The position numbers and the translations under genes were made by a program. Under the pieces are notes generated by a model. That model was not told the origin of the DNA. It did no database searches and was given only the letters and a program-made list of their open reading frames with translations. A stretch of 64,000 nucleotides of DNA, from the NCBI GenBank assembly GCA_018223125.1, contig JAAEZA010000012.1, forward strand, positions 1 to 64,000. The letters are read 5' to 3'. Of this stretch, positions 5,118 through 47,584 are shown in pieces (positions within the stretch are counted from its first letter, which is position 1; every line of letters starts with the position of its first letter). The DNA comes from Paracoccaceae bacterium (GTDB lineage Bacteria; Pseudomonadota; Alphaproteobacteria; Rhodobacterales; Rhodobacteraceae).

Positions 5118-5444
5118 ATGACAAAAATAGAAGACGTGGACGTGCAAGCGTTGCCGCTGCTTTTGCGTGAAGCACGGGCAGCTGTGGCTGGACTGCGCAA
5201 GCGTATTATTCGCGATTTGTCGGAAAGGTCTCCTCATGCCGAACCTATCTCAACTGCGCAATTGTTAACCCTTGTACGGGAATACAGTGCCGCAGTTTTG
5301 CATGTAACGTCGCTTGAGGCCCACATTGAAAAACACAGCAGCGCCATCCGCGGTGTCGTCCAAGGAGACGCCGTCAACCTTGAACATGCAAGACGGGAAG
5401 TCCTTGACCGACTTGCTCGGTTCCGCGACCGAAGCGGAGATTGA
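5118..5444 (+). CDS. GTA small terminase-like protein (g1)
   Basis: 108 aa ORF immediately upstream of terminase large subunit; position matches RcGTA g1. Confidence 0.65.
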   Translation: MTKIEDVDVQALPLLLREARAAVAGLRKRIIRDLSERSPHAEPISTAQLLTLVREYSAAVLHVTSLEAHIEKHSSAIRGVVQGDAVNLEHARREVLDRLARFRDRSGD

Positions 5445-6093
5445 AGAATTCCTTGCAGGGCTGAGTGATCAAACGTTGATGGCCCTGCCTTACCTGTTTG
5501 ACTTCTGGGCTTTGCCACACCAGCGGGCACCAAGCGGTGACTGGGCCACTTGGGTGATCATGGGGGGGCGAGGGGCGGGTAAGACCCGTGCAGGCGCGGA
5601 ATGGGTGCGCCAGCAAGTCGAAGGGGCAGAGCCTTTCGAGCAAGGGCGGTATCGTCGTGTGGCGCTGGTGGGAGAGACGCTCGATCAGGTGCGCGAGGTG
5701 ATGGTGTTTGGTGAGAGTGGCATTATGGCCTGTAGCCCGCCCGATCGCAAACCGGAATGGCAGGGATCCCGTCGTGTGCTGGTCTGGCCGAACGGGGCCG
5801 AGGCCTGGGCCATGTCTGCAAGCAGTCCCGAAAGTTTGCGTGGCCCGCAATTCGACTGCGCTTGGGCGGACGAGTTGGGCAAATGGCGGCGAGGGCGGGA
5901 ATGTTGGGACATGCTGCAATTTGCGCTGCGATTGGGGGATAACCCCCGCACGCTTGTGACAACGACACCGCGCAACATCGGAGTGTTAAAGGAGATACTG
6001 AAGGCAGAGGATACGGCTGTAACCCACGCGCCGACCGAGGCGAACAAGGCCAATCTTGCGCCCGGTTTCTTGAAGAAAGTGTACACGGATTAA
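5386..6093 (+). CDS. GTA large terminase (g2), N-terminal ATPase part, ends at in-frame TAA
   Basis: WVIMGGRGAGKTRAGAEWVRQ Walker A; ...NLAPGFLKKVYTD* then the same frame continues SGTRLGRQELEG. Confidence 0.88.
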   Translation: MQDGKSLTDLLGSATEAEIEEFLAGLSDQTLMALPYLFDFWALPHQRAPSGDWATWVIMGGRGAGKTRAGAEWVRQQVEGAEPFEQGRYRRVALVGETLDQVREVMVFGESGIMACSPPDRKPEWQGSRRVLVWPNGAEAWAMSASSPESLRGPQFDCAWADELGKWRRGRECWDMLQFALRLGDNPRTLVTTTPRNIGVLKEILKAEDTAVTHAPTEANKANLAPGFLKKVYTD

Positions 6094-6741
6094 AGCGGGA
6101 CGCGGTTGGGCCGGCAAGAACTGGAGGGCCGGTTGCTGGAAGACGCGGAAGGCGCGCTGTGGCCGATGGAGCGACTGGAGGAGTTGCGGAGGGCGGAGGT
6201 GCCGGAACTGGACCGGATTGTGGTTGCGGTTGATCCGCCTGCCTCTGGCAAGTCCACATCGGATGCTTGCGGGATTGTTGTCGCAGGAATGCAGATGATT
6301 GGCGCGGGCCCGCAGGACTGGCGGGCGTGGGTGCTGGAGGATGCGAGCATTCGGGGGGCAAGCCCTGCGAAATGGGCTGCACGGGTCGTGGAAGCGGCGC
6401 GAAGCTGGCAGGCGGACCGAGTGGTCGCCGAGGTCAATCAGGGCGGTGACATGGTTGAGAGCGTTCTGCGCCAGCAGGATCCGCTGCTTGCCTATCGCGG
6501 TGTCCATGCGTCGCGCGGGAAATCTGTCAGGGCGGAGCCTGTGGCGGCGCTATACGAGCAGGGCCGCGTGTTTCACGCGCCCGGATTGCAGGCGTTAGAG
6601 GCACAGATGGGGGATATGACGCTGCTGGGGTATGAGGGCAAGGGATCGCCGGATCGGGTTGACGCCCTGGTTTGGGCATTGACGGATTTGATGATTGATC
6701 CGGCGGCGCAGTTCAAAAGGCCGCAGATACGCCGCCTGTAG
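6094..6741 (+). pseudogene. GTA large terminase (g2), C-terminal nuclease part, same reading frame as the preceding ORF
   Basis: SGTRLGRQELEGRLLEDAEGALW...RIVVAVDPPASGKSTSDACGIVVAG; 6106 and 5386 are in the same frame (difference divisible by 3). May be translated only by restart (e.g. TTG at 6106) or readthrough. Confidence 0.8.
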
Positions 6742-6789
6742 ATCGGCCTGCAACGCACTGTTTTAATTATAGATTAGGAGAAGTTTCAG

Positions 6790-7968
6790 ATGGTACTGCA
6801 ATTTTTGCGCAGTGCGTCCCAACGGGATGTGCCGGAAGAAAAAAACTCGGCGGCGGGACCGGTTATCGCGTTTCACGGAGCGGGACGGCCGGCCTGGTCT
6901 GCGCGGGATGTGGGCAGTCTGACACGCAGCGGATTTCTGGCCAATCCGGTCGGGTTTCGCTGTGTGAAGATGATTGCGGAAGCGGCGGCGGCGGTGCCAC
7001 TGATCGTGAGCGGGTCGGGAACGCGGTTTGAGGTGCATCCGTTAATCGACCTGCTGGCGCGGCCGAACGGGATTCAGGGCGGCGCGGACCTTTTGGAGAG
7101 TTTTTACGGACAGTTCCTGTTGTCCGGCGACGGGTATCTTGAGGCGGCAGGGAGCAGCCCGGATGGCGGGCCTGCCGAGATTTACGTCCTGCGCTCCGAC
7201 CGGATGAAGGTGGTTCCCGGCGCTGACGGGTGGCCGGATGCCTACGAATATTCGGTCGGTTCCCGTAAGGTTCGCTTTGACATGGGTACGGAGCTGCCGC
7301 CGGTCTGTCATGTACGGGCGTTCCACCCTTTGGATGATCATTACGGATTGTCCCCGATACAGGCGGCGGCGACGGCACTGGATGTTCACAATGCGGCCTG
7401 CCGCTGGTCCAAGGCGCTGCTGGACAATGCGGCGCGGCCAAGCGGTGCGATTGTGTACCGCGGGGTGGACGGACAGGGAAGCTTGCAGGCGGATCAGTAT
7501 GACCGGCTGGTAGAGGAGATCGAAGCAAACCATCAGGGAGCGCGCAATGCAGGGCGTCCGATGCTGCTGGAAGGCGGGCTTGACTGGAAGCCTATGGGGT
7601 TTTCGCCTTCGGATATGGAGTTCCAGAAAACCAAGGAAAGTGCGGCGCGGGAGGTGGCCCTTGCCTTCGGGGTGCCGCCTATGCTGCTGGGGCTGCCCGG
7701 CGATGCGACCTATGCAAATTATGCAGAAGCGAACCGCGCGTTCTATCGTCTGACAGTCCTGCCGCTGGTGCAGAAGCTGGCGGCGGGTTTGTCGGCGTGG
7801 CTGTCGGCTTTCTACGGTGAAACGCTGCGGCTGTCGGCAGACCTGGATGGTATTCCGGCCCTTGCGATAGAGCGGGAGGCGCAGTGGCGCCGCGTGGCAG
7901 AGGCAGGCTTTCTGACCGATCGGGAAAAGCGGAGGCTGTTGGGCTTGCCCGCTGAACCAGATGAGTAG
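6790..7968 (+). CDS. GTA/HK97-type phage portal protein (g3)
   Basis: 392 aa; FRCVKMIAEAAAAVPL, HLIDLLARPN-type N-terminus, ALAFGVPPMLLGLPGDATYANYAEANRAFYRLTVLPL. Confidence 0.92.
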   Translation: MVLQFLRSASQRDVPEEKNSAAGPVIAFHGAGRPAWSARDVGSLTRSGFLANPVGFRCVKMIAEAAAAVPLIVSGSGTRFEVHPLIDLLARPNGIQGGADLLESFYGQFLLSGDGYLEAAGSSPDGGPAEIYVLRSDRMKVVPGADGWPDAYEYSVGSRKVRFDMGTELPPVCHVRAFHPLDDHYGLSPIQAAATALDVHNAACRWSKALLDNAARPSGAIVYRGVDGQGSLQADQYDRLVEEIEANHQGARNAGRPMLLEGGLDWKPMGFSPSDMEFQKTKESAAREVALAFGVPPMLLGLPGDATYANYAEANRAFYRLTVLPLVQKLAAGLSAWLSAFYGETLRLSADLDGIPALAIEREAQWRRVAEAGFLTDREKRRLLGLPAEPDE

Positions 7969-8197
7969 GGGCGTCGGATCGCGCTATTTGTACGAACCGT
8001 TCGAGGCGGCGGCAAAGCTGGAAACGCATCGTCAGGTAACGGATGAACGCTGGATCGCGCTGGAGCGTCGGCTTGAGATGATCGAGAGCGCGCTGGAGCG
8101 GCTGGAGCGGCGGATCTGGCTGGCGGTTTACGGCGTGGTCGGGTTCGTGCTGACACGGGGCGTTCTGGTGCTTCTGGATGTGACGCAGCAGGTTTGA
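7961..8197 (+). CDS. GTA small head-associated protein (g3.5-like)
   Basis: 78 aa ORF overlapping the portal gene end; position between portal and prohead protease as in RcGTA. Confidence 0.6.
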   Translation: MSRGVGSRYLYEPFEAAAKLETHRQVTDERWIALERRLEMIESALERLERRIWLAVYGVVGFVLTRGVLVLLDVTQQV

Positions 8198-8230
8198 TGC
8201 CCACTGGCATCGCAATTCAAAGGAAATGGT

Positions 8231-8788
8231 ATGGGATATGCGGAGAGCGCCCTGGCGCTGGAGAGGAAGTTTTGCCGGTTTGAAGACGGGATCGACGTTT
8301 CGGGAGACTGTGAGATTTCGGGCTATGCGTCGGTTTTCGGGGCTTCGGACCAGAGCGGCGACGTGGTTCAAAAAGGGGCCTACGAGCGCAGCCTGAAAGC
8401 GATGGCACAGGACGGGCGGCGTGTGAAAATGCTTTGGCAGCACGATCCGGCCAAGCCAATCGGCGTCTGGCAGGTGGTGCGCGAAGATACCAAGGGGCTG
8501 TTTGTGAAAGGGCGCATTCTGGCGGATGTGCAGGCGGGTTCCGAAGCTTTGTCGCTGGTCAAGGCCGGAGCAATTGAGGGGCTTTCCATCGGGTATCGTA
8601 CCGTGCGGTCGGAAAAATCAAGCAAGGGCAACAGGTTATTGTGTGAACTTGATCTATGGGAGGTGTCGCTGGTGACTTTCCCGATGTTGCCCGAAGCGCG
8701 GATTGGCGCTGGTGCAAAAGGGGATGAAACCCTGGCTGAAGAACTGGTTACCGCGCTTGCCGCTGCAAAGGCACGGCTGTCCGGGTGA
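8231..8788 (+). CDS. HK97-family prohead protease (g4)
   Basis: GYASVFGASDQSGDVVQKGAYERSL, LWQHDPAKPIGVW, GLSIGYRTV motifs. Confidence 0.92.
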   Translation: MGYAESALALERKFCRFEDGIDVSGDCEISGYASVFGASDQSGDVVQKGAYERSLKAMAQDGRRVKMLWQHDPAKPIGVWQVVREDTKGLFVKGRILADVQAGSEALSLVKAGAIEGLSIGYRTVRSEKSSKGNRLLCELDLWEVSLVTFPMLPEARIGAGAKGDETLAEELVTALAAAKARLSG

Positions 8789-8845
8789 CGGGTTTCTGCG
8801 GCCCCTTAATTATTTCAAAGTTTTAACCACAGCACAGGATTGATC

Positions 8846-10045
8846 ATGAGCACATCGACTACCGCGGCGCCGCGAGGCGTGAAAGAGGCCAAGTCCATGC
8901 CTTCGCTTCAGGTGAAGGCTGCGATGGAAGATTTTCTACAGGACGTAACCAAAGTGAATAGCGATTTGAAAGACCGACTTCAGGAACAGGAAAAGAGATT
9001 GAACATGCTGGAACGCAAGAACACTGGCGCGCGGCGCCCTGTATTGTCCGCAGTGGCCGAGGTTGAGGTGCCACACAAGAAGGCATTTGCAGCCTATCTG
9101 CGCAGTGGTGACGACGACGCAATGCGGGCATTAAATGTGGAAGAAAAGGCATTGTCTACTGCGGTTTCCGGCGATGGGGGCTATCTGGTTGATCCCCAGA
9201 CTGCGGATCAGATTGCCGGTGTGCTCCATGCAACGGCCTCTATTCGTTCGATTGCCAATGTGGTGGCGGTGGAATCGACGGCCTATGATGTGCTGGTGGA
9301 TCACACCGAATTGGGGGCGGGATGGGCCACCGAGACCGGCGCCGCGACCGAGACTTCAACGCCGCAGGTCGAGCGGATTTCGATCCCGTTGCATGAACTT
9401 TCGGCCCTACCCAAAGCTTCCCAGCGGTTGCTGGATGACAGTGCCTTTGACGTGGAAGGTTGGCTGGCGTCGCGGATAGCCGACAAATTCTCCCGCGCGG
9501 AAGGGGTGGCTTTTGTGTCGGGTAACGGTGTGGACAAGCCGACGGGTTTTCTGACCTATACCACAGTGGCAAACAACAGTTGGAGCTGGGGCGATCTTGG
9601 CTATGTGGCAACAGGAGCTGACGGAGACTTTGCAGCGCTCGACCCTGCGGATGCGATTGTGGATCTGGTTTATTCGCTGGGCGCGCGCTATCGCGCGAAT
9701 GCGACCTTTGTGATGAATTCCAAGACAGCGGGCGCCGTGCGCAAGATGAAGGACGCGGACGGGCGTTTCTTGTGGTCGGATGGGTTGGCTGCGGGGGAGC
9801 CTGCACGCCTGATGGGCTATCCGGTGCTGGTGGCCGAAGATATGCCGGATATTTCCAGCGGCGCAAATGCCATTGCTTTTGGCGACTTTGCGGCTGGCTA
9901 TACCGTGGCAGAGCGGCCGGACCTGCGGATTCTGCGCGATCCGTTTAGCGCCAAACCGCATGTATTGTTCTACGCCACGAAACGTGTTGGCGGGGATGTC
10001 AGCGATTTTGCGGCAATCAAACTGCTGAAATTCGCCGTTTCTTAA
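8846..10045 (+). CDS. HK97-family major capsid protein (g5)
   Basis: DGGYLVDPQTADQIAGVL, VSGNGVDKPTGFL, GYPVLVAEDMPDISSGANAIAFGDFAAGYTV. Confidence 0.94.
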   Translation: MSTSTTAAPRGVKEAKSMPSLQVKAAMEDFLQDVTKVNSDLKDRLQEQEKRLNMLERKNTGARRPVLSAVAEVEVPHKKAFAAYLRSGDDDAMRALNVEEKALSTAVSGDGGYLVDPQTADQIAGVLHATASIRSIANVVAVESTAYDVLVDHTELGAGWATETGAATETSTPQVERISIPLHELSALPKASQRLLDDSAFDVEGWLASRIADKFSRAEGVAFVSGNGVDKPTGFLTYTTVANNSWSWGDLGYVATGADGDFAALDPADAIVDLVYSLGARYRANATFVMNSKTAGAVRKMKDADGRFLWSDGLAAGEPARLMGYPVLVAEDMPDISSGANAIAFGDFAAGYTVAERPDLRILRDPFSAKPHVLFYATKRVGGDVSDFAAIKLLKFAVS

Positions 10046-10192
10046 TCAAAAGTAGGGGTCCCTTTCAGGGATGGGGCAACGGGGTTCGCTGCGTTGCTTC
10101 TGGTGTGCTGCGGGTCGGTTCTGCTGTCCTCCGTCCAGCCGGCCCGCACGCACTGCATTTATCAATTTGATCCGTATTGGGAGAATACGCTT

Positions 10193-10780
10193 ATGATTTT
10201 GACTGAACTTTCAAGCGTTCCGAGCGGATCGCTGCCACTGGCTTTGCTGAAAGAGCATTTGCGTTTGGGGACAGGGTTTTCCAGCGGAGCGGAGCAGGAC
10301 GATCTGTTGGAAGCCTATCTGCGTGCGGCGATCAGCGCGGTAGAGGGGCGCACAGGGCTGGTGCTGCTGGAGAAGTCCTTTAACTGGGCACTGACTGGGT
10401 GGCGGCACTATGACAGGCAAGTCTTGCCGGTGCGACCTGTGCAATCGCTGGATGCTCTGACGCTGGTGGACAGGGCGGGTGTCGAGACGGTGATGCCGTC
10501 AGAATCCTATCATTTGGAAAAGGATAGCCAGAACCCTGCTTTGGTCGCGGTTGGACTGGCGTTGGCAGTTATTCCGGAAGCGGGTCGTGCAGAGGTATCC
10601 TTTACCGCCGGTTATGGTCCGTCGTGGAACGATCTGCCGCCCGATCTGGCACGGGCAGTTCTGCTGCTGGCGGCAGAGTTTTACGAACATCGTGCGAGCC
10701 GTGAGGGCGCGAGCCTGCCTCCGGCGATTTTGTCCCTTCTGGATCGGTTTAGAAAAGTGCGCTTGCTGGGGGGAAGCTGA
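10193..10780 (+). CDS. GTA head-tail connector protein (g6, phiE125 gp8-like)
   Basis: MILTELSSVPSGSLPLALLKEHLRLGTGF...; PPDLARAVLLLAAEFYEHR. Confidence 0.8.
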   Translation: MILTELSSVPSGSLPLALLKEHLRLGTGFSSGAEQDDLLEAYLRAAISAVEGRTGLVLLEKSFNWALTGWRHYDRQVLPVRPVQSLDALTLVDRAGVETVMPSESYHLEKDSQNPALVAVGLALAVIPEAGRAEVSFTAGYGPSWNDLPPDLARAVLLLAAEFYEHRASREGASLPPAILSLLDRFRKVRLLGGS

Positions 10781-11121
10781 TGGTGCGGCATGTGGAGTTG
10801 AACCGGAAGTTGACGCTGGAGCGGCGGCAGCGGGTTTCCGATGGTGCTGGCGGGTTCGAGCGGAACTGGGTGGCCTTGGGAGAGGTCTGGGCCGATGTGC
10901 AGATGCGCAGTGTCAGGGTGACGGAGGTTTCTGCGGGCACAACGGCTTTGGAACGGCACAGGATCATCGTGCGCGGTGCACCGCAGGGGGATCCGCAGCG
11001 TCCGATGCCCGGACAACGGTTTGTCGAAGGAAGCCGGATTTACGGAATTGAATCGGTAACGGAGCATGATCACGCCGGGCTGTATCTGCTGTGTTGGACC
11101 CGTGAGGAGGTGCTGACGTGA
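10780..11121 (+). CDS. Phage head-tail adaptor (g7)
   Basis: LNRKLTLERRQRVSDGAGGFERNWVALGEVWADV; ATGA-type overlap with neighbours. Confidence 0.8.
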   Translation: MVRHVELNRKLTLERRQRVSDGAGGFERNWVALGEVWADVQMRSVRVTEVSAGTTALERHRIIVRGAPQGDPQRPMPGQRFVEGSRIYGIESVTEHDHAGLYLLCWTREEVLT

Positions 11122-11528
11122 CTTATGCGGTTTCCCATGCGCTTCAGCAGGGGATCTATCTGGCTTTGAAGGCGGATGCGACTTTGACGGGGCTGGTTGG
11201 TAGCGATGTGTTTGACGCACCGCCAAGCGGGGCAATACCGGACCTTTATGTCATGATCGGAGACGAACAGGCGCGGGACCGTTCCAGTGGTTCGGCAGGT
11301 GCGGCGGTACATGATCTGGACATACGCGTGGTGTCCTCGGCGGCGGGGTTTGCTGCGGCAAAGCAGGTTGCGGGGGCGGTGTGCGATGCGGTGATCGGGG
11401 CGCAGATTGCCCTGACCAGAGGCCGGTTGGTGTCGCTTTCCTTTCGAACGGCGCGTGCATTGCGGGACGGCAGCCCCGAGCAGAGGCAGATCCGTCTGAA
11501 ATTTCGCGCATTTGTAGAGGATGCCTGA
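11118..11528 (+). CDS. DUF3168 tail terminator-like protein (g8)
   Basis: ALQQGIYLALKADATLTGLVGSDVFDAPPSGAIPDLYVMIGDE. Confidence 0.8.
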   Translation: MTYAVSHALQQGIYLALKADATLTGLVGSDVFDAPPSGAIPDLYVMIGDEQARDRSSGSAGAAVHDLDIRVVSSAAGFAAAKQVAGAVCDAVIGAQIALTRGRLVSLSFRTARALRDGSPEQRQIRLKFRAFVEDA

Positions 11529-11579
11529 CCGGCTGCGGGCCGGTTTCAGAAAGAAGTTTAGAGGAATTAGGAGAGAGTT

Positions 11580-11993
11580 ATGGCGGCACAGAACGGCAAG
11601 GATCTGTTGATCAAGGTGGATATGGACAATGCGGGGACATTCGCGACACTGGCAGGGCTGCGTGCCTCGCGCATTTCGTTCAACACGGAAACCGTGGATG
11701 TAACGGCGCTCGACAGTACAGGGGGGTGGCGGGAATTGCTGGCGGGGGGCGGTGTGAAAACCGCCAGTATCAGCGGATCGGGCGTGTTTCGGGATGAAAA
11801 CACCGACGAGCGGGCGCGGCAGATTTTCTTTGACGGGCAAATCCCCGATTTTCAGGTGGTAATACCGGATTTCGGCATTGTGGAAGGGGCGTTTCAGATC
11901 ACGTCACTGGAGTATGCGGGGCAGTTTGACGGAGAGGCGACCTATGAAATGGCCTTCGCGTCGGCGGGCGCGCTGGCGTTTTCCGTGATTTGA
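11580..11993 (+). CDS. Major tail tube protein, TP901-1/GTA family (g9)
   Basis: MAAQNGKDLLIKVDMDNAGTFATLAGLRASRISFNTETVDVTALDSTGGWRELLAGGGVKTASISGSGVF. Confidence 0.88.
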   Translation: MAAQNGKDLLIKVDMDNAGTFATLAGLRASRISFNTETVDVTALDSTGGWRELLAGGGVKTASISGSGVFRDENTDERARQIFFDGQIPDFQVVIPDFGIVEGAFQITSLEYAGQFDGEATYEMAFASAGALAFSVI

Positions 11994-12319
11994 TGGCGAA
12001 TCCTTATCGCGGCGAGGTGTCGCTGACAGTGGATGGCGTAAAGCGCGTGATGCGGCTGAGCCTCGGGGCTTTGGCGGGGCTTGAAGCCCGTCTCGGGGCG
12101 GAGGGATTGCTGCCGCTGATTGTGCGGTTCGAGAACGGGGCGTTTGCGACGGAGGATCTGATTGCATTGCTTCGGGCCGGACTGTCGGGCGGGGGCTGGG
12201 AGTGCAGCGAGGCAGAACTGAGGCGGGCCGAGATCGAAGGAGGCGCGATGGAGGCAGCGCGGGCTGCGGGGATGCTGTTGCGCTTGACGTTCACGCTGCC
12301 GGAGAGTGCGGATGATTGA
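11993..12319 (+). CDS. GTA gp10-like tail assembly protein
   Basis: MANPYRGEVSLTVDGVKRVMRLSLGALAGLEARLG; start overlaps stop of g9. Confidence 0.75.
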   Translation: MANPYRGEVSLTVDGVKRVMRLSLGALAGLEARLGAEGLLPLIVRFENGAFATEDLIALLRAGLSGGGWECSEAELRRAEIEGGAMEAARAAGMLLRLTFTLPESADD

Positions 12320-12500
12320 CTGGGCCGGTTTGATGGCGCTGGGGCTGGGGCAGTTGCGCCTGTTGCCGGAACAGTTCTGGGCGCTGACGCCTGTGGAGTT
12401 GCTGATGATGGCGGGTGTAACGCCTGGCGGGACACCGGGGCTGAGCCGTGCGCGGCTGGATGCGCTTTGTGCGCAGTTTCCGGATGTGAGAGAGCATTAG
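12312..12500 (+). CDS. GTA g10.1-like phage tail assembly chaperone
   Basis: MIDWAGLMALGLGQLRLLPEQFWALTPVELLMMAG; overlaps g10. Confidence 0.7.
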   Translation: MIDWAGLMALGLGQLRLLPEQFWALTPVELLMMAGVTPGGTPGLSRARLDALCAQFPDVREH

Positions 12501-12512
12501 AGAGGACCAAGC

Positions 12513-13178
12513 ATGGATGATAACGGACCTGATCTGGAGACGCTGGAAAACCAGTTGGAGGCTCTGGAAGGCGATATTTCTGCTACGGCACGAATTTCGG
12601 CTGTGTTCCAGCAGGAGTTGAAGGGGATGCAGACGAGCATCTCGCTGGCGGAAAAGGAGGCGCGGGGGTTGTCGGGGTCTCTGTCCAAGGGGCTGAGGGG
12701 GGCCTTCGGGGATGTGATCCTTCAGGGGGCGAAGTTTTCTGATGTGCTTGAGACACTGGCGCAGCGGATGATCCGCAGCACCTTCAATCAGGCGATCTCC
12801 CCCGTAAGTGATGCGATCGGGGGCGCTTTGAGCGGTGGTGTCAATTCGATCCTTGGCAGCATCTTCCCGAGCGCCAGCGGCAATGTCTTTTCGGGAGGGC
12901 GGGCGACTGGCTTTGCCAAAGGGGGCGTTGTGGGCGGGCCAACGGTACTTCCGATGCGCGGGGGGATAGGGCTGATGGGGGAGGCAGGAGCTGAGGCGAT
13001 CATGCCGTTGCGCCGCGGTGCCGACGGGCGCTTGGGGGTCGAGGGTGCCGGAGGAGGCACAGCGGTTCACGTCACGATGAACATTACCACACCGGATGCA
13101 GAAAGCTTCGCGCGGTCCCAGACCCAAGTGGCGGCAGGGATCAGTCGGGCGATCGCCCGCGGGAACCGGAACCAGTAG
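12513..13178 (+). CDS. Short GTA tape-measure protein (g11)
   Basis: 221 aa; Gly/Ser-rich centre, FAKGGVVGGPTVLPMRGGIGLMGEAGAEAIMPLRRGADGRLGVEG. Confidence 0.85.
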   Translation: MDDNGPDLETLENQLEALEGDISATARISAVFQQELKGMQTSISLAEKEARGLSGSLSKGLRGAFGDVILQGAKFSDVLETLAQRMIRSTFNQAISPVSDAIGGALSGGVNSILGSIFPSASGNVFSGGRATGFAKGGVVGGPTVLPMRGGIGLMGEAGAEAIMPLRRGADGRLGVEGAGGGTAVHVTMNITTPDAESFARSQTQVAAGISRAIARGNRNQ

Positions 13179-13189
13179 GAGAGTAGATC

Positions 13190-13822
13190 TTGAACTTTCA
13201 TGAAGTCAGATTTCCGGCCGGATTGTCATTCGGGTCAAGCGGCGGGCCGGAACGGCGCACCGAGATTGTGACGCTGAACAGCGGCTATGAAGAGCGTAAC
13301 AGCCCCTGGGCCCATGCGCGGCGGCGCTATGATGCGGGGGTTGCCATGCGTTCTACCGATGATCTGGAAGCTGTGATCGCTTTTTTCGAGGCACGGCGCG
13401 GCCGGTTGTACGGGTTTCGCTGGAAGGACTGGACGGATTTCAAAAGTTGCCTGTCATCCCGCGAGCCTGCGTTTACGGATCAGGAGATCGCGGTGGGAGA
13501 CAGTGTGACGGTGCAGGTTCCCCTGTGCAAGACCTACCGTTCGGGAGAGACCACATACTGTCGCACGATTTCCAAGCCTGTGGAGGGAACCTTGGCTGTC
13601 GGGGTTGGCGGTGCGCAGGTTTTTGAGGGGGAGCATTATGAAGTGGATTATACAACTGGCGTCATCCGTTTTAATGAAGCTCCTCCCGAAGGGGCGCTTG
13701 TGACGGCCGGGTTTGTGTTTGATGTGCCGGTACGGTTTGACACTGACCGGCTGGACATGAGCATGGCAAGCTTTGCTGCCGGATCCGTACCTAGTGTGCC
13801 TGTGGTGGAGGTCCGTGTCTGA
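13190..13822 (+). CDS. DUF2460 distal tail protein (g12)
   Basis: MNFHEVRFPAGLSFGSSGGPERRTEIVTLNSGYEERNSPWAHARRRYDAG. Confidence 0.92.
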   Translation: MNFHEVRFPAGLSFGSSGGPERRTEIVTLNSGYEERNSPWAHARRRYDAGVAMRSTDDLEAVIAFFEARRGRLYGFRWKDWTDFKSCLSSREPAFTDQEIAVGDSVTVQVPLCKTYRSGETTYCRTISKPVEGTLAVGVGGAQVFEGEHYEVDYTTGVIRFNEAPPEGALVTAGFVFDVPVRFDTDRLDMSMASFAAGSVPSVPVVEVRV

Positions 13823-14709
13823 TGCGCAGGATTGGTGAAGCCATGCAGGCGCATCTGAACAGTGGTGCGACAACGTTGTGCCGTGCATGGGTCGTGCGGC
13901 GGAGGGACGGAGCGGTTTACGGGTTTACGGATCATGACAGCGATTTGCCGGTTGACGGCGTGTTGTGTGAAGCGGCATCCGGTATGGATGCAAGTGCTGT
14001 GGAGCGGTCTACCGGACTTGCGGTTGACAACGCGCAGGCTGTCGGGGCGCTAAGTTCGCTTGGTATCAATGATCTTGATATCGAGACAGGACGGTTTGAC
14101 GGGGCCGAGGTTACCCACTGGCTGGTAAACTGGAAGCAGCCGGCACAGGCTATTCTGCAATTTCGCGGTACGATCGGAGAGGTGCGGCGGGGACAAGGCG
14201 CTTTCGAAGCGGAATTGCGCGGGCTGAGCGAGGCCCTGAACAAACCGGTAGGGCGAACCTATCTGCGCCAGTGTGACCGGATTGTCGGGGACGGGAAATG
14301 CGGTGTGGACCTGTTTGCCGAAGGGTTTGTAGCCGAGGATGTTGTCGATACCTCCACGGGACGGCGGGTGATCGAGCTGAAGCATCTGGGCGCGTTTGAG
14401 GAAGACTGGTTTGCACAGGGGCGGGTCACTTGGTTAAGCGGGCCGAATGAGGGTGCGGACGGTCTGGTGAAAGTGGATTACCGTCGGGGTCCGGTGCATG
14501 TAGTGGAACTGTGGGAAGAGACCCGCTTTCCGATCGGGAACGGTGACCGGATCCGCTTGCACGCAGGATGTGACAAGCATGCAGGCACCTGTCGGGAGAA
14601 ATTCGGTAATTTCCTGAACTTTCGCGGATTTCCCCATATGCCCGGTGAGGATTTCAGTCTGACCTATCCTGTTGCAGGGCGTCCTATGGACGGCGCAAGG
14701 CGCGAATAG
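13822..14709 (+). CDS. DUF2163/phage BR0599-type tail hub protein (g13)
   Basis: TLCRAWVVRRRDGAVYGFTDHDSDL...RTYLRQCDRIVGDGKCGVD...GCDKHAGTCREKFGNFLNFRGFPHMPGED, Cys-rich C-terminus. Confidence 0.92.
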   Translation: MRRIGEAMQAHLNSGATTLCRAWVVRRRDGAVYGFTDHDSDLPVDGVLCEAASGMDASAVERSTGLAVDNAQAVGALSSLGINDLDIETGRFDGAEVTHWLVNWKQPAQAILQFRGTIGEVRRGQGAFEAELRGLSEALNKPVGRTYLRQCDRIVGDGKCGVDLFAEGFVAEDVVDTSTGRRVIELKHLGAFEEDWFAQGRVTWLSGPNEGADGLVKVDYRRGPVHVVELWEETRFPIGNGDRIRLHAGCDKHAGTCREKFGNFLNFRGFPHMPGEDFSLTYPVAGRPMDGARRE

Positions 14710-15162
14710 ATGACACCGCAGATGCGTAAGGAAATCCTTGCCGTGGCGCGGGGCTGGATCGGTACGCCCTATCGCCACCAATGCAGTGTGAAGGGGCAGG
14801 GTACGGATTGTCTGGGGCTGCTACGCGGAGTCTGGCGCGAGCTATTCGGTGCAGAACCTGTGGTCGTACCGGCCTATACGGCGGATTGGTCGGAGGCGTC
14901 CGGAGAGGAGCGGCTGTGGCGTGCCGCGCGGCGGTATCTGGTGGCGGTGCCGGTTTGTCTGCCGTGTTTTGGTGACGTGGTGCTGTTCCGGATGCGGCAG
15001 CAGGCGGTGGCGAAACATGTCGGAATCTTGAGCAGGGCGTCCGGTGGCCTGCCGACACTTGTCCATGCTTACAGCGGCAAAGGTGTTGTCGAGACGCCTT
15101 TAACGCAGGCCTGGTCCCGCCGGATCGTAGCACAATTCGAATTTCCCGAGAGGAGGGGCTAA
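14710..15162 (+). CDS. NlpC/P60-type GTA peptidase (g14)
   Basis: ARGWIGTPYRHQCSVKGQGTDCLGLLRGVWRELFG, AKHVGILSR. Confidence 0.9.
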   Translation: MTPQMRKEILAVARGWIGTPYRHQCSVKGQGTDCLGLLRGVWRELFGAEPVVVPAYTADWSEASGEERLWRAARRYLVAVPVCLPCFGDVVLFRMRQQAVAKHVGILSRASGGLPTLVHAYSGKGVVETPLTQAWSRRIVAQFEFPERRG

Positions 15163-18100
15163 TGGCGACGATACTCTTATCTGCGGCAGGCGCTGCGATC
15201 GGTGGTACTTTCGGGGGAACTGTGTTGGGCCTGACGGGGGCGGCAATTGGCAAGGCCGTCGGGGCGAGCCTTGGCGGGGTGATCGACCAGAAGATCCTTG
15301 GTAGCGGCAGTCGGGTGGTTGAAACCGGACGGCTTGAAAGCTTCCGCTTGCAGGGCGTGAGCGAGGGGGCGGCGGTGCCCCGGGTGATGGGGCGCGCACG
15401 CATTGCAGGACATCTGATCTGGGCGAGCCGGTTTGAGGAACACGTCAGCACGCAGACCTCTGGAGGCGGTAAGGGGGGCGGCGGGCCGCGGGTTACAACC
15501 AAGTCTTATTCTTACACGGTAAATGTTGCCTTCGCTCTGGGCGAGGGCGTGGTAGACAAGATCGGGCGGATTTGGGCGGACGGGCAGGAAATCAGCCGCG
15601 ACGGATTGTCGATAGCGTTCTATCCCGGAGACGAGTCACAGGTGCCCGATCCGACGATTTCCGCGATAGAAGGGTTGGAAAATGCGCCAAGTTATCGGGG
15701 CACGGCTTATATCGTTTTCGAAGACCTTGATCTTGGGCCTTTCGGCAACAGGATTCCCCAGTTCAATTTCGAAGTGTTCCGGAAAGCGCAGCCCGAACAC
15801 AGCACACTGGATGATCCGTCGCGGGATATAACAGGTGTTTGCCTGATCCCGGGAACAGGCGAGTATTCTCTGGCAGTGACGCCGGTCGAATATCCGGGGG
15901 ACTTTGGTGACGGCAAATTTGCGAATGTGAACTCTCCGCGCGGAAAGACCGACCTGCTGCACGCGCTGGAGGATCTGCAGGAGGACATTCCGAATATTGC
16001 GTCTGTCTCGCTTGTGGTGAGCTGGTTTGGAGATGATCTGCGCTGTGGGATGTGCAACCTGACACCCCGTGTCGAGCAGACCGAGGTGGACGGGGATCCG
16101 ATGCCTTGGGTGGTTTCCGGTCTGGCGCGGTCTGCAGCCTCTTTGGTGAGTTTTTACGGCGACCGGCCTGTCTATGGGGGGACACCTGCGGACGGCGCTG
16201 TTCTGGAAGCTATAGAGCACATGAAAGATGCGGGACAGAGTGTTGTTTTCTATCCGTTTATCCTGATGGACATTCAGGCGGACAACGGATTGGCTGATCC
16301 CTATTCCGACAATCCAGACCAGCCCGTTATGCCGTGGCGTGGCCGGATTACAACGGCGAAGGCGGCGGGACGGGACGGGAGCAGCGACAAGACGCCGGCA
16401 GCCGCTTCGGAAGTTGCAGCGTTTTTCGGGACAGCGGCGGTGACTGATTTTTCGGTTGCGGACGGCGCAGTGCTTTACAGTGGTCCGGCGGAGTGGAGCT
16501 ATCGCCGCTTTATACTGCATTACGCCTATCTGTGCCTTGCCGCTGGCGGGGTCGAGGCGTTTAATATCGGGTCGGAAATGCGGGGGCTCACCCGCATTCG
16601 GGATGGGGTGGACAGTTTTCCGGCTGTTCTTGCCTTGCAGCAACTTGCAAGTGATGTGCGGACGGTTCTGGGACCGGATGTTAAAATCGGCTATGCTGCG
16701 GATTGGTCCGAATATTTCGGTTATCATCCCGATGACGGATCAGGGGACGTGTTGTTCCATCTTGATCCGCTGTGGGCACAATCGGAAATCGACTATATCG
16801 GGATTGATAATTACATGCCGCTGGCGGACTGGCGGGACAGTCTGGGGCATCGTGATGAGGGCGAAGGCTCGGTCTATTCTGTGGATTACCTGCGCAAGAA
16901 TGTAGCGGGTGGGGAGGGATTTGACTGGTATTATGCGGATGCGGCGGGGCGCGATGCGCAGGACCGTATTGCGATCACGGATGGCGCATACGGGGAGCCT
17001 TGGGTCTTTCGTTACAAGGATCTGGTAAGCTGGTGGAGCAAGGAGCATTACAACCGTCTGGGCGGCGTCCGGCAGAGTGTTCCGACACAGTGGCAGCGCA
17101 AATCCAAACCGATCCGTTTTACCGAATTGGGATGCCCTGCCGTGGACAAGGGGGCGAACCAGCCAAATGTTTTCTTTGACCCGAAATCATCTGAATCTGC
17201 CTTGCCGTATTATTCCGAAGGTTCCGTCGATACCCTGATGCAGGCGCAGTATCTGCGGGCGACATACGCACACTGGCTGGAGCCTGACAATAATCCGGTT
17301 TCGGACGTGTATTTCGCGCCGATGGTGGACATTGCGAACAGTCATGTCTGGGCATGGGATGCGCGGCCCTGGCCGGATTTTCCGAACCGTCTTGATGTGT
17401 GGAGTGACGGGGAAAACCACGGGCGGGGGCATTGGATCACGGGGCGGTTTTCCGATCAGTCGCTTGGGGCAATTGTCTCGGAAATTTGTGACATTTCGGG
17501 TTTGCGGGACATTGATGTGTCACAGCTTTACGGTTCGACCATCGGCTTTGCCATGACCTCGGTTGAGACAGGGCGGCAGAGCTTGCAGCCCCTTATGCTG
17601 GCGTTTGATTTTTCCTGTACAGAAGCAGACGGCAAGCTGGTTTTCATGAACCGGAGCGAGCAGATAGCATTCACGGCTTTGCCTGCGGATCTGGCCGTTG
17701 CGGATGCCATCCCCGCTGTCGCGAAAACCCGCGCACCGGCGGCAGAAACCGTCGGGCGTGTGCGCGTATCGTTTTGGGACGAAACACGGGATTACCAGAC
17801 TGCAACATCCGAGTTTGCCCTTTCCGACGACGAAAGCCAGGCCTCGTCCCATGTGTCGCTGCCACTGGTCCTGCGGCCGGGTACAGGGGTGAATCTGGCG
17901 AGTAGATGGCTTGTGTCTGCGCGGGTGGCGCAGGATGAGGTGAAGCTGTCCTTCCCGCCGAGCGTGCAGGGGCTGGTTGCGGGTGATGTGTTCAAGCTTG
18001 ATGACGGAGGGACTGGTGCGACCTACCGGATCGAGAGGATTTTTGAACAGGGCGCGCGGGAAACGGAGGCCGTGCGGGTCGAACAATCGGTTTACAAGCA

Positions 18101-19085
18101 GAAAGACGCAAGTTCGACGATCGGGACAGTTTCTGCGCTGCAACCGGCAGGGGGATTTGTCCTGCGCTTTCTGGATTTGCCCGTGCTTGAGGCTGAACAG
18201 GAAAGTTTTGCACCATACGCTGTGGCAGCGGGATCGCCCTGGCCGGACGCTGTGGCTGTGTTCAAATCGGCCACGGATGACGGATATGTGCTCGACACGA
18301 TAATCGAGACGCCTTCAAAGATCGGCAAAACCGTGACGGAACTTCGTTGCGGTCCAGTGGGTTTCTGGGACGAGGTGAATACGCTGCGGGTCCGGATTTC
18401 AAGTGGAAGTCTGGAAGGGCGCAGTGTTCTTGATGTGCTGAACGGTTCCAACGGTGTCGCGATAGGAAGCGGTGCGGCGGCGGGATGGGAAGTGTTCCAG
18501 TACCGCGAGGCCGAACTTCAGTCCGACGGTAGCTACATTCTGCGGGGCCTGTTGCGGGGGCAGTTGGGCAGCGATGCCGACATGCCGGATGTCTGGCCGG
18601 AAGGTTCCGAACTGGTGTTTCTGGACCGTATTCCCGAACGTTTGCAACACAAGGACGCAGATCGTGGCGTCGAAAGGTATTATCGCAGCGGACCGGCTGC
18701 CAAACCTGTGGGGGATCCAGCATATAGGACACGAACAGAAAGCTTTGATCTGGTGGCTTTGCGCCCGCTTTCCCCTGTGCATTTACAAAGCCGGCGCGAC
18801 GAGGCGAACGCCATTCACCTGAGCTGGATCAGGCGCACGCGGATTGACGGGGACAGTTGGGAAGGTCTGGAGGTGCCTTTGGGGGAAGGGACAGAGCTGT
18901 ACCGTGTCGACGTGCTTGACGGCACCGGCGTGCTGCGGAGCGAGATGGTCGGGACGCCGGAGTGGAGCTACTCTGCCGCGATGCAGGCCGAGGACGGTGC
19001 CGCAGGTGCGGTGAATGTCAGCGTTTCGCAGGTTTCAGAGAAATTCGGTCCCGGCGCGGCTGCGGGTTTAACCATAGAAATCTAA
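15162..19085 (+). CDS. GTA host-specificity/tail megatron protein (g15)
   Basis: 1307 aa single ORF; glycoside-hydrolase-like (IGIDNYMPLADWRD) and phage tail domains. Confidence 0.92.
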   Translation: MATILLSAAGAAIGGTFGGTVLGLTGAAIGKAVGASLGGVIDQKILGSGSRVVETGRLESFRLQGVSEGAAVPRVMGRARIAGHLIWASRFEEHVSTQTSGGGKGGGGPRVTTKSYSYTVNVAFALGEGVVDKIGRIWADGQEISRDGLSIAFYPGDESQVPDPTISAIEGLENAPSYRGTAYIVFEDLDLGPFGNRIPQFNFEVFRKAQPEHSTLDDPSRDITGVCLIPGTGEYSLAVTPVEYPGDFGDGKFANVNSPRGKTDLLHALEDLQEDIPNIASVSLVVSWFGDDLRCGMCNLTPRVEQTEVDGDPMPWVVSGLARSAASLVSFYGDRPVYGGTPADGAVLEAIEHMKDAGQSVVFYPFILMDIQADNGLADPYSDNPDQPVMPWRGRITTAKAAGRDGSSDKTPAAASEVAAFFGTAAVTDFSVADGAVLYSGPAEWSYRRFILHYAYLCLAAGGVEAFNIGSEMRGLTRIRDGVDSFPAVLALQQLASDVRTVLGPDVKIGYAADWSEYFGYHPDDGSGDVLFHLDPLWAQSEIDYIGIDNYMPLADWRDSLGHRDEGEGSVYSVDYLRKNVAGGEGFDWYYADAAGRDAQDRIAITDGAYGEPWVFRYKDLVSWWSKEHYNRLGGVRQSVPTQWQRKSKPIRFTELGCPAVDKGANQPNVFFDPKSSESALPYYSEGSVDTLMQAQYLRATYAHWLEPDNNPVSDVYFAPMVDIANSHVWAWDARPWPDFPNRLDVWSDGENHGRGHWITGRFSDQSLGAIVSEICDISGLRDIDVSQLYGSTIGFAMTSVETGRQSLQPLMLAFDFSCTEADGKLVFMNRSEQIAFTALPADLAVADAIPAVAKTRAPAAETVGRVRVSFWDETRDYQTATSEFALSDDESQASSHVSLPLVLRPGTGVNLASRWLVSARVAQDEVKLSFPPSVQGLVAGDVFKLDDGGTGATYRIERIFEQGARETEAVRVEQSVYKQKDASSTIGTVSALQPAGGFVLRFLDLPVLEAEQESFAPYAVAAGSPWPDAVAVFKSATDDGYVLDTIIETPSKIGKTVTELRCGPVGFWDEVNTLRVRISSGSLEGRSVLDVLNGSNGVAIGSGAAAGWEVFQYREAELQSDGSYILRGLLRGQLGSDADMPDVWPEGSELVFLDRIPERLQHKDADRGVERYYRSGPAAKPVGDPAYRTRTESFDLVALRPLSPVHLQSRRDEANAIHLSWIRRTRIDGDSWEGLEVPLGEGTELYRVDVLDGTGVLRSEMVGTPEWSYSAAMQAEDGAAGAVNVSVSQVSEKFGPGAAAGLTIEI

Positions 19086-46356: not shown

Positions 46357-46431
46357 TGGGACGTGGCCTAGTGGTAGGGCAACGCTTTTTGGTAGCGCAG
46401 ATCGTAGGTTCGAATCCTACCGTCCCAGCCA
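46357..46431 (+). tRNA. tRNA-Gln (UUG)
   Basis: 75-nt cloverleaf TGGGACG...CGTCCCAGCCA; anticodon loop TTTTGGT = TTG; T-loop GGTTCGAATCC. Confidence 0.93.
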
Positions 46432-46589
46432 ACTTCTTAATCCGGCATGATCGTTTCTTCGGCAGTATTACAAATCTGCTTAGACCTTTCGGGGAATATC
46501 GGCGCTTGCGACAGTGAAGCTTGTTGAGCCTGTCCAAACACTCGTCTAGCGTAGCGCGCAATCCGAAGTCCAAAGAGAACCTTTCATCT

Positions 46590-47456
46590 ATGTCCGAAAC
46601 CACCGAAACGGCCGTCAGCCCGAAAGACGCCAAAGTCTACAGCACAGTTCAGGAAATACCCGAAGGCACCGCCGGGCTGGTTGAAGGGCAATACGTCTGG
46701 AAGGGCGAAGACCGGTCGCGCGTTTTCATTTTCTTCTGTGGCGCAGTCAGTGGCAAGATGATCCCGCTTTCGCCGATCTTTCAACGCTGGAAGTGGGTGC
46801 ACAAGTTTTCCCATTCCGTTGTCATCGCGCACGACCCCCTGATCAAGAGCAGCGGTAAATTACAGCTGGCCTGGTACACCGGAACCAACAACGGCGCGGA
46901 TTTCGATGAAATTGTCTCCGTTCCCCTGCGGCTGGCCCGCAGCCTGACAGACGGAGAGGTTTGCGCCTTTGGCAGTTCAGGGGGCGGATTTGCCGCTTTG
47001 ATGGCAACGGTGCGCAATCATGTGGACAGTACGCTGGCCATCAATCCGCAAACGAATGTGCTGCGCTATCATCCCCATATGCGGGAATCGTTTCTGCGCA
47101 CCTATTTGGAAGAGCCAAAGAGCTTGCAGCAGTCCGATTACGAAAGACTTTCCATCAGCGGTTCGCTCTGGCGGTATTACGACCGTTGCAGGACACAGGT
47201 TGTTGTAAACACCCATGATTCCCTGCACTATAAATCACATGTTTTGCCGTTAAGCCGTGCTGTAGCGCAGCAGAATCTCAACAGCTTTTCGTTTGACACG
47301 TACGACGACAAGAAAAACGGGCATAACCCGCCATCCATGAACCGCACGCTCTGGCTGATTAACCGCTGGTGGCCCAAAGCAATTGCCGGACCATACAGAA
47401 AAGAAGTGCAAGGCATGAAGTCTCTTAAAACACTGAAAGATCCCGGCGCTGTCTAG
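46590..47456 (+). CDS. Alpha/beta-hydrolase-fold-like hypothetical protein
   Basis: 288 aa; VCAFGSSGGGFAALMA nucleophile elbow. Confidence 0.6.
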   Translation: MSETTETAVSPKDAKVYSTVQEIPEGTAGLVEGQYVWKGEDRSRVFIFFCGAVSGKMIPLSPIFQRWKWVHKFSHSVVIAHDPLIKSSGKLQLAWYTGTNNGADFDEIVSVPLRLARSLTDGEVCAFGSSGGGFAALMATVRNHVDSTLAINPQTNVLRYHPHMRESFLRTYLEEPKSLQQSDYERLSISGSLWRYYDRCRTQVVVNTHDSLHYKSHVLPLSRAVAQQNLNSFSFDTYDDKKNGHNPPSMNRTLWLINRWWPKAIAGPYRKEVQGMKSLKTLKDPGAV

Positions 47457-47509: not shown

Positions 47510-47584
47510 TGGCTGGGACGGTAGGATTCGAACCTACGATCTGCGCTACCAAAAAGCGTTGCCCTACCACTAGGCCACGTCCCA
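47510..47584 (-). tRNA. tRNA-Gln (UUG), identical inverted copy
   Basis: Exact reverse complement of 46357..46431. Confidence 0.93.

Follow-up and report, generated by a model that had tools for sequence, protein, structure and literature searches.

Does an in-frame stop codon in the large terminase gene of a gene-transfer machine disable DNA packaging, divide the enzyme into two cooperating chains, or reflect an error in the assembly? The question is raised by a 64,000-nucleotide stretch of DNA (hereafter the window) from a marine Rhodobacterales bacterium, in which a virus-derived gene transfer agent (GTA) is encoded with a TAA inside terL, the gene of its large terminase (TerL).

An interrupted terminase gene in a complete cluster

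The window carries a complete RcGTA-type cluster (approximately 5118-19085) between fabF/mltG and cysE, neighbours that we named from their sequences and homologues. All of its genes described here lie on the forward strand (+), and every gene but terL is open; the sequence-only reading had claimed as much, and homologue comparison across the cluster bore it out. The first gene, g1 (5118..5444), is assigned as the small terminase (TerS) by position. It shares 95% amino acid identity with the homologue at the same place in Amylibacter (Neptunicoccus) cionae, and a Pfam search with it gave no match, as expected of a poorly conserved small terminase. Downstream of terL follow the genes of the portal (6790..7968; Pfam Phage_portal, E = 3e-84), the prohead protease (8231..8788; Peptidase_S78), the major capsid protein (8846..10045; Phage_capsid) and the remaining head-tail proteins (10094..19085). 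The last group matches GTA_TIM, Phage-tail_3, Rcc01698_C and other Pfam families, has open homologues in N. cionae and N. sediminis, and ends with a 1307-aa multidomain baseplate protein (15162-19085) bearing the GTA_TIM and Rcc01698_C domains. The syntenic head-tail cluster of portal, protease, capsid, tail and GTA TIM-barrel baseplate genes, together with slow, vertical evolution and conservation in sister species, is that of an RcGTA-like element, although the intact one-chain TerL with ATPase and nuclease is missing, the sole copy being interrupted by the TAA. Elsewhere in the genome, an open gene matches DUF6456, which we take to be the GafA domain of the GTA activator; this is a family match only, and the same search also finds Caulobacter, which has GafYZ.

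The terL frame extends from ATG 5386 (or TTG 5380) to 6741 and contains one internal stop, the TAA at 6091-6093, which is real in the assembly. Read directly around this codon, the frame is ...NLAPGFLKKVYTD-TAA-SGTRLGRQELEG... The 5' part (5386..6093), preceded by a Shine-Dalgarno (SD) sequence and aligned with 44 homologues, encodes a 235-aa product with the Walker A region and ATPase motifs and matches Terminase_6N (E = 6e-22). The 3' part (6094..6741) is open to the natural stop and matches Terminase_6C (E = 7e-24) in the same frame, as had been proposed from the letters alone. A chance frame match of the two halves was rejected, since the protein is continuous in both N. cionae and N. sediminis. 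A second, intact copy was likewise rejected: terL is present once in the 3.9 Mb genome assembly (98 contigs, 99% complete, 0.4% contamination).

Among 81 sequences compared, the codon at the stop site is TAT in 62, TAC in 16, a Phe codon in 2 and TAA in the window only. The earlier expectation of a Tyr at this site, lost by a single TAT/TAC-to-TAA change, is thus confirmed by Tyr in 78 of the 81 sequences and by TAC in the two nearest species, N. cionae and N. sediminis. Both align collinearly with the window, at 92% DNA identity over 10.6 kb around terL (89% over ~20 kb) for N. cionae and 85% (83% over ~20 kb) for N. sediminis. It is also alone in having an internal stop in TerL, both among the genus matches and among about 150 matches listed in a family-wide search, in which weaker and fragmented matches were left out and which is hence no census of frameshifts. 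As would be expected of a new pseudogene, the lesion is absent from all close homologues. An exact-pattern search of viral contigs for the stop site gave no match. As a separate observation, Nereida ignava, from another collection (L043:4284-5648), carries a nonsense codon at another TerL position, a conserved Trp in the ATPase domain, and its remaining GTA genes are open up to where the locus ends.

Across the window (~18,500 residues compared with N. cionae), no genuine gene except terL is interrupted relative to this species. Four other apparent stops were dismissed: three are read as antisense shadow frames, one of these on position alone, and the fourth as a codon that precedes a true start. 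This absence of further interruptions bears on the possibility that the TAA is an error of sequencing or assembly, or became fixed as a variant in laboratory culture, and that the natural terL is intact. Only one base is changed, and the assembly is a draft in 98 contigs, which is compatible with such an origin. However, terL is the sole interrupted gene, the assembly appears to be of high quality, and substitution errors are rare in consensus assemblies, which makes an artefact unlikely.

Position of the stop, restart and readthrough

The sequence-only reading had placed the TAA between the ATPase and nuclease halves of the enzyme. An AlphaFold2 model of the read-through TerL chain (mean pLDDT 85, pTM 0.65) contradicts this. 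In the model, a helix (226-236) terminates at codon 236 and is followed by a second helix (240-247), a linker and, from residue 277, the first strand of the RNase H-like nuclease core. A PDB search with the model found the terminases Sf6 gp2, T4 gp17 and D6E among the best matches, with poor superposition over the whole chain and differently oriented domains. From its place before the linker and from general knowledge of T4 gp17, we take the segment around codon 236 to be ATPase subdomain II. The stop is thus predicted to lie inside this subdomain, about 40 residues before the nuclease fold, and the 3' part would encode the end of subdomain II, the linker and the nuclease domain; this is not a clean domain split. 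Constructs of the RcGTA TerL delimit the ATPase domain as L27-V258, to which TerS binds, and the nuclease as V253-L455 (PMC6854486), and with these limits the stop would truncate the ATPase domain and remove the nuclease. We rejected any special meaning of the position itself: of 156 one-step nonsense changes possible in terL, 15 fall within 20 residues of the stop, so a stop near the domain boundary is unremarkable.

A TTG codon at 6106-6108 (+), correctly noted in the sequence-only reading, suggests an alternative in which ribosomes would reinitiate after the TAA (at TTG 6106, TTG 6133 or ATG 6166) and two chains would cooperate as a two-polypeptide terminase. According to the model, initiation at ATG 6166 (residue 261) would still yield a complete nuclease fold, and TTG 6133 is preceded by an SD-like match. 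Yet the SD score of the latter (-9.8) lies just past the 5% background quantile (-9.4) in a GC-rich coding region, and that of TTG 6106 is weak (-4.6, close to the median background score of -5.1). Since scores of roughly -3 to -12 occur at known starts of the cluster, SD strength is by itself a poor guide. Creation of the restart codon by mutation was rejected: TTG 6106 is not derived, being TTG also in N. cionae and CTG in N. sediminis. Nor is a split conserved across related genomes, as no homologue is divided at this site in the 81 sequences, the ~150 listed matches or the genus matches. The predicted break inside ATPase subdomain II, where TTG 6106 would also lie, likewise argues against two working chains, as does the analogy of T4 gp17, another large terminase brought into two pieces. 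Cut in the laboratory at its flexible linker, gp17 kept both activities and entirely lost translocation (PMC3012670), whereas the break in the window lies upstream, apparently within the ATPase domain itself. Cooperation of two restarted chains is accordingly improbable, and we give still less credence to a functional TAA that, by stop and restart, would produce a two-chain GTA terminase composed of an uncoupled ATPase fragment and a free nuclease. To our knowledge, a large terminase split in nature would be a first among GTAs.

Least probable of all is that readthrough or ochre suppression yields some full-length TerL. Low-level readthrough may occur at any stop, and a packaging motor would need few copies; against this, no TAA-reading anticodon is present among the 36 tRNAs found, and termination at UAA is normally efficient when the next base is A. 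A genome-wide alternative code or suppression was rejected on the same 36 tRNAs, among which tRNA-Tyr is not included. Neither covariance nor pattern searches located tRNA-Tyr (three pattern matches are not tRNAs), so the exclusion of a Tyr-derived suppressor is less than complete. In another part of the window, two inverted tRNA-Gln(TTG) genes (46357-46431, +, and 47510-47584, -) flank a gene at 46521-47456. N. cionae also has copies that match in inverted orientation, which suggests a segment able to invert or insert.

Selection on terL and age of the stop

Substitutions were counted on the branches leading to the window and to N. cionae, with N. sediminis as the outgroup. Nonsynonymous/synonymous counts (N/S) on the window branch were 4/30 before the stop and 2/20 after it, with no difference between them (Fisher p = 1); on the branch of the intact sister N. 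cionae they were 7/31 before the site and 3/26 after. By these counts, both TerL halves evolved under equally strong purifying selection on the window branch. The GTA cluster as a whole showed no relaxation either (N/S 153/446 on the window branch versus 147/443 on the N. cionae branch). One tail-region gene, at the g11 position (12513-13178), had N/S of 20/31 on the window branch versus 7/32 on that of N. cionae (p = 0.04, uncorrected).

Had the downstream half been neutral over the full branch, about 59 nonsynonymous changes would be expected, compared with the 2 observed. The 95% upper bound for the neutral share of the window branch is ~7%, or roughly 0.9% synonymous divergence. On the assumption that the downstream half is now untranslated, the stop would therefore be at most about 7% of the window branch in age. 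The relaxed selection that follows a lesion in an established pseudogene was not detected, as is to be expected if the lesion is very recent. The same pattern is accommodated by other explanations: the lack of any relaxation in either TerL half would fit an assembly error or culture variant, and strong conservation downstream is also expected from a functional two-piece terminase with restart.

Loss of GTAs in the genus and comparison with known systems

The genus, here a grouping of 33 genomes in the comparison set that includes quite divergent ones, has a TerL match in 21/33 genomes and a portal match in 18/33, several genomes being incomplete. One of them (G010, L169:4751-6087) has an independent TerL frameshift near residue 306-309, in the nuclease domain, and its other GTA genes show no break up to the contig end. 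In G022 only TerL 1-312 is left, adjoining cysE, and in G009 the portal gene is split over two frames; a search for a baseplate gene in G009 found none. Two further genomes, G440 (L171:8454-10919) and G001 (L172:240-2644), share a deletion junction at a short match (GA-TTGGGC-like), where TerL 1-165 is joined in frame to the baseplate protein from residue 655 onward. The fusion is one open frame of ~820 aa in G440 and breaks later in G001. Synonymous sites are near saturation and omega of the TerL part is ~0.16, which leaves two readings: a fusion protein formed long ago and retained since, or separate deletions in each genome at one short repeat. In three genomes without a portal or TerL match (G023:C8:11076-12983, G006:C91:27217-28809 and G013:C399:3681-5159), all that persists of the baseplate protein is its C-terminal half, in open frames of 500-644 aa. 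Taken together, the TerL frameshift, the broken portal, the deletion relics and outright absence indicate that the genus is losing its GTA repeatedly, as judged from these genomes; in such a series, the window fits as the opening step.

The TAA stands in the assembly, is unique to this genome among those compared and is accompanied by no other decay. With a probability of roughly three in four, we propose that the only TerL gene of this RcGTA-like cluster, whose other genes are intact, was inactivated by a nonsense mutation of a single base that arose very recently. A C-to-A transversion would have turned the conserved Tyr codon into TAA. Translation would end at codon 236, and the resulting fragment of 235 residues would contain the Walker region but neither the last stretch of ATPase subdomain II nor any of the nuclease domain. 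The cell could still produce capsids, tails and lysis functions; with DNA neither cut nor pumped into heads, it would be a futile, non-transducing producer. Packaging is predicted to be abolished and gene transfer is probably disabled. Of the options offered by the sequence-only reading, a recent nonsense mutation is well supported, restart is weakly placed and readthrough has no suppressor tRNA in its favour.

The closest known system is the RcGTA of Rhodobacter capsulatus (head-tail cluster from rcc01682), which the window resembles in gene order from the small terminase to the 1307-aa baseplate protein, in the GTA_TIM and Rcc01698_C domains and in a gafA-type activator gene elsewhere in the genome. 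In contrast to the window TerL, interrupted at codon 236, that of RcGTA is one chain, and loss of the small terminase leaves RcGTA without packaged DNA or infective particles (PMC6854486). We count this result, the loss of translocation in split T4 gp17 (PMC3012670) and the lesions in the genus in favour of a null terL allele.

It is thought that selection maintains GTA clusters and that they are nevertheless open to cheater mutations. Pseudogenised clusters have been described in several alphaproteobacterial lineages and proposed as possible newly arisen cheaters (PMC10883770). Like them, the window has a loss-of-function lesion in a cluster that is intact in recent relatives. It differs in that no lesion was found beyond the point mutation in terL, which marks an extremely early stage, and in that the costs of particle production and lysis may still fall on the cell, unlike in a classic non-producing cheater. 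Since pseudogenised GTAs and the cheater idea are already published, the window offers a clean early example, not a new kind of system, and the terminase itself is no new design. A one-step packaging-null allele in a pristine cluster, with intact sisters and with relatives at every later stage of decay, would allow the gain or loss of packaging-null cells to be tested.
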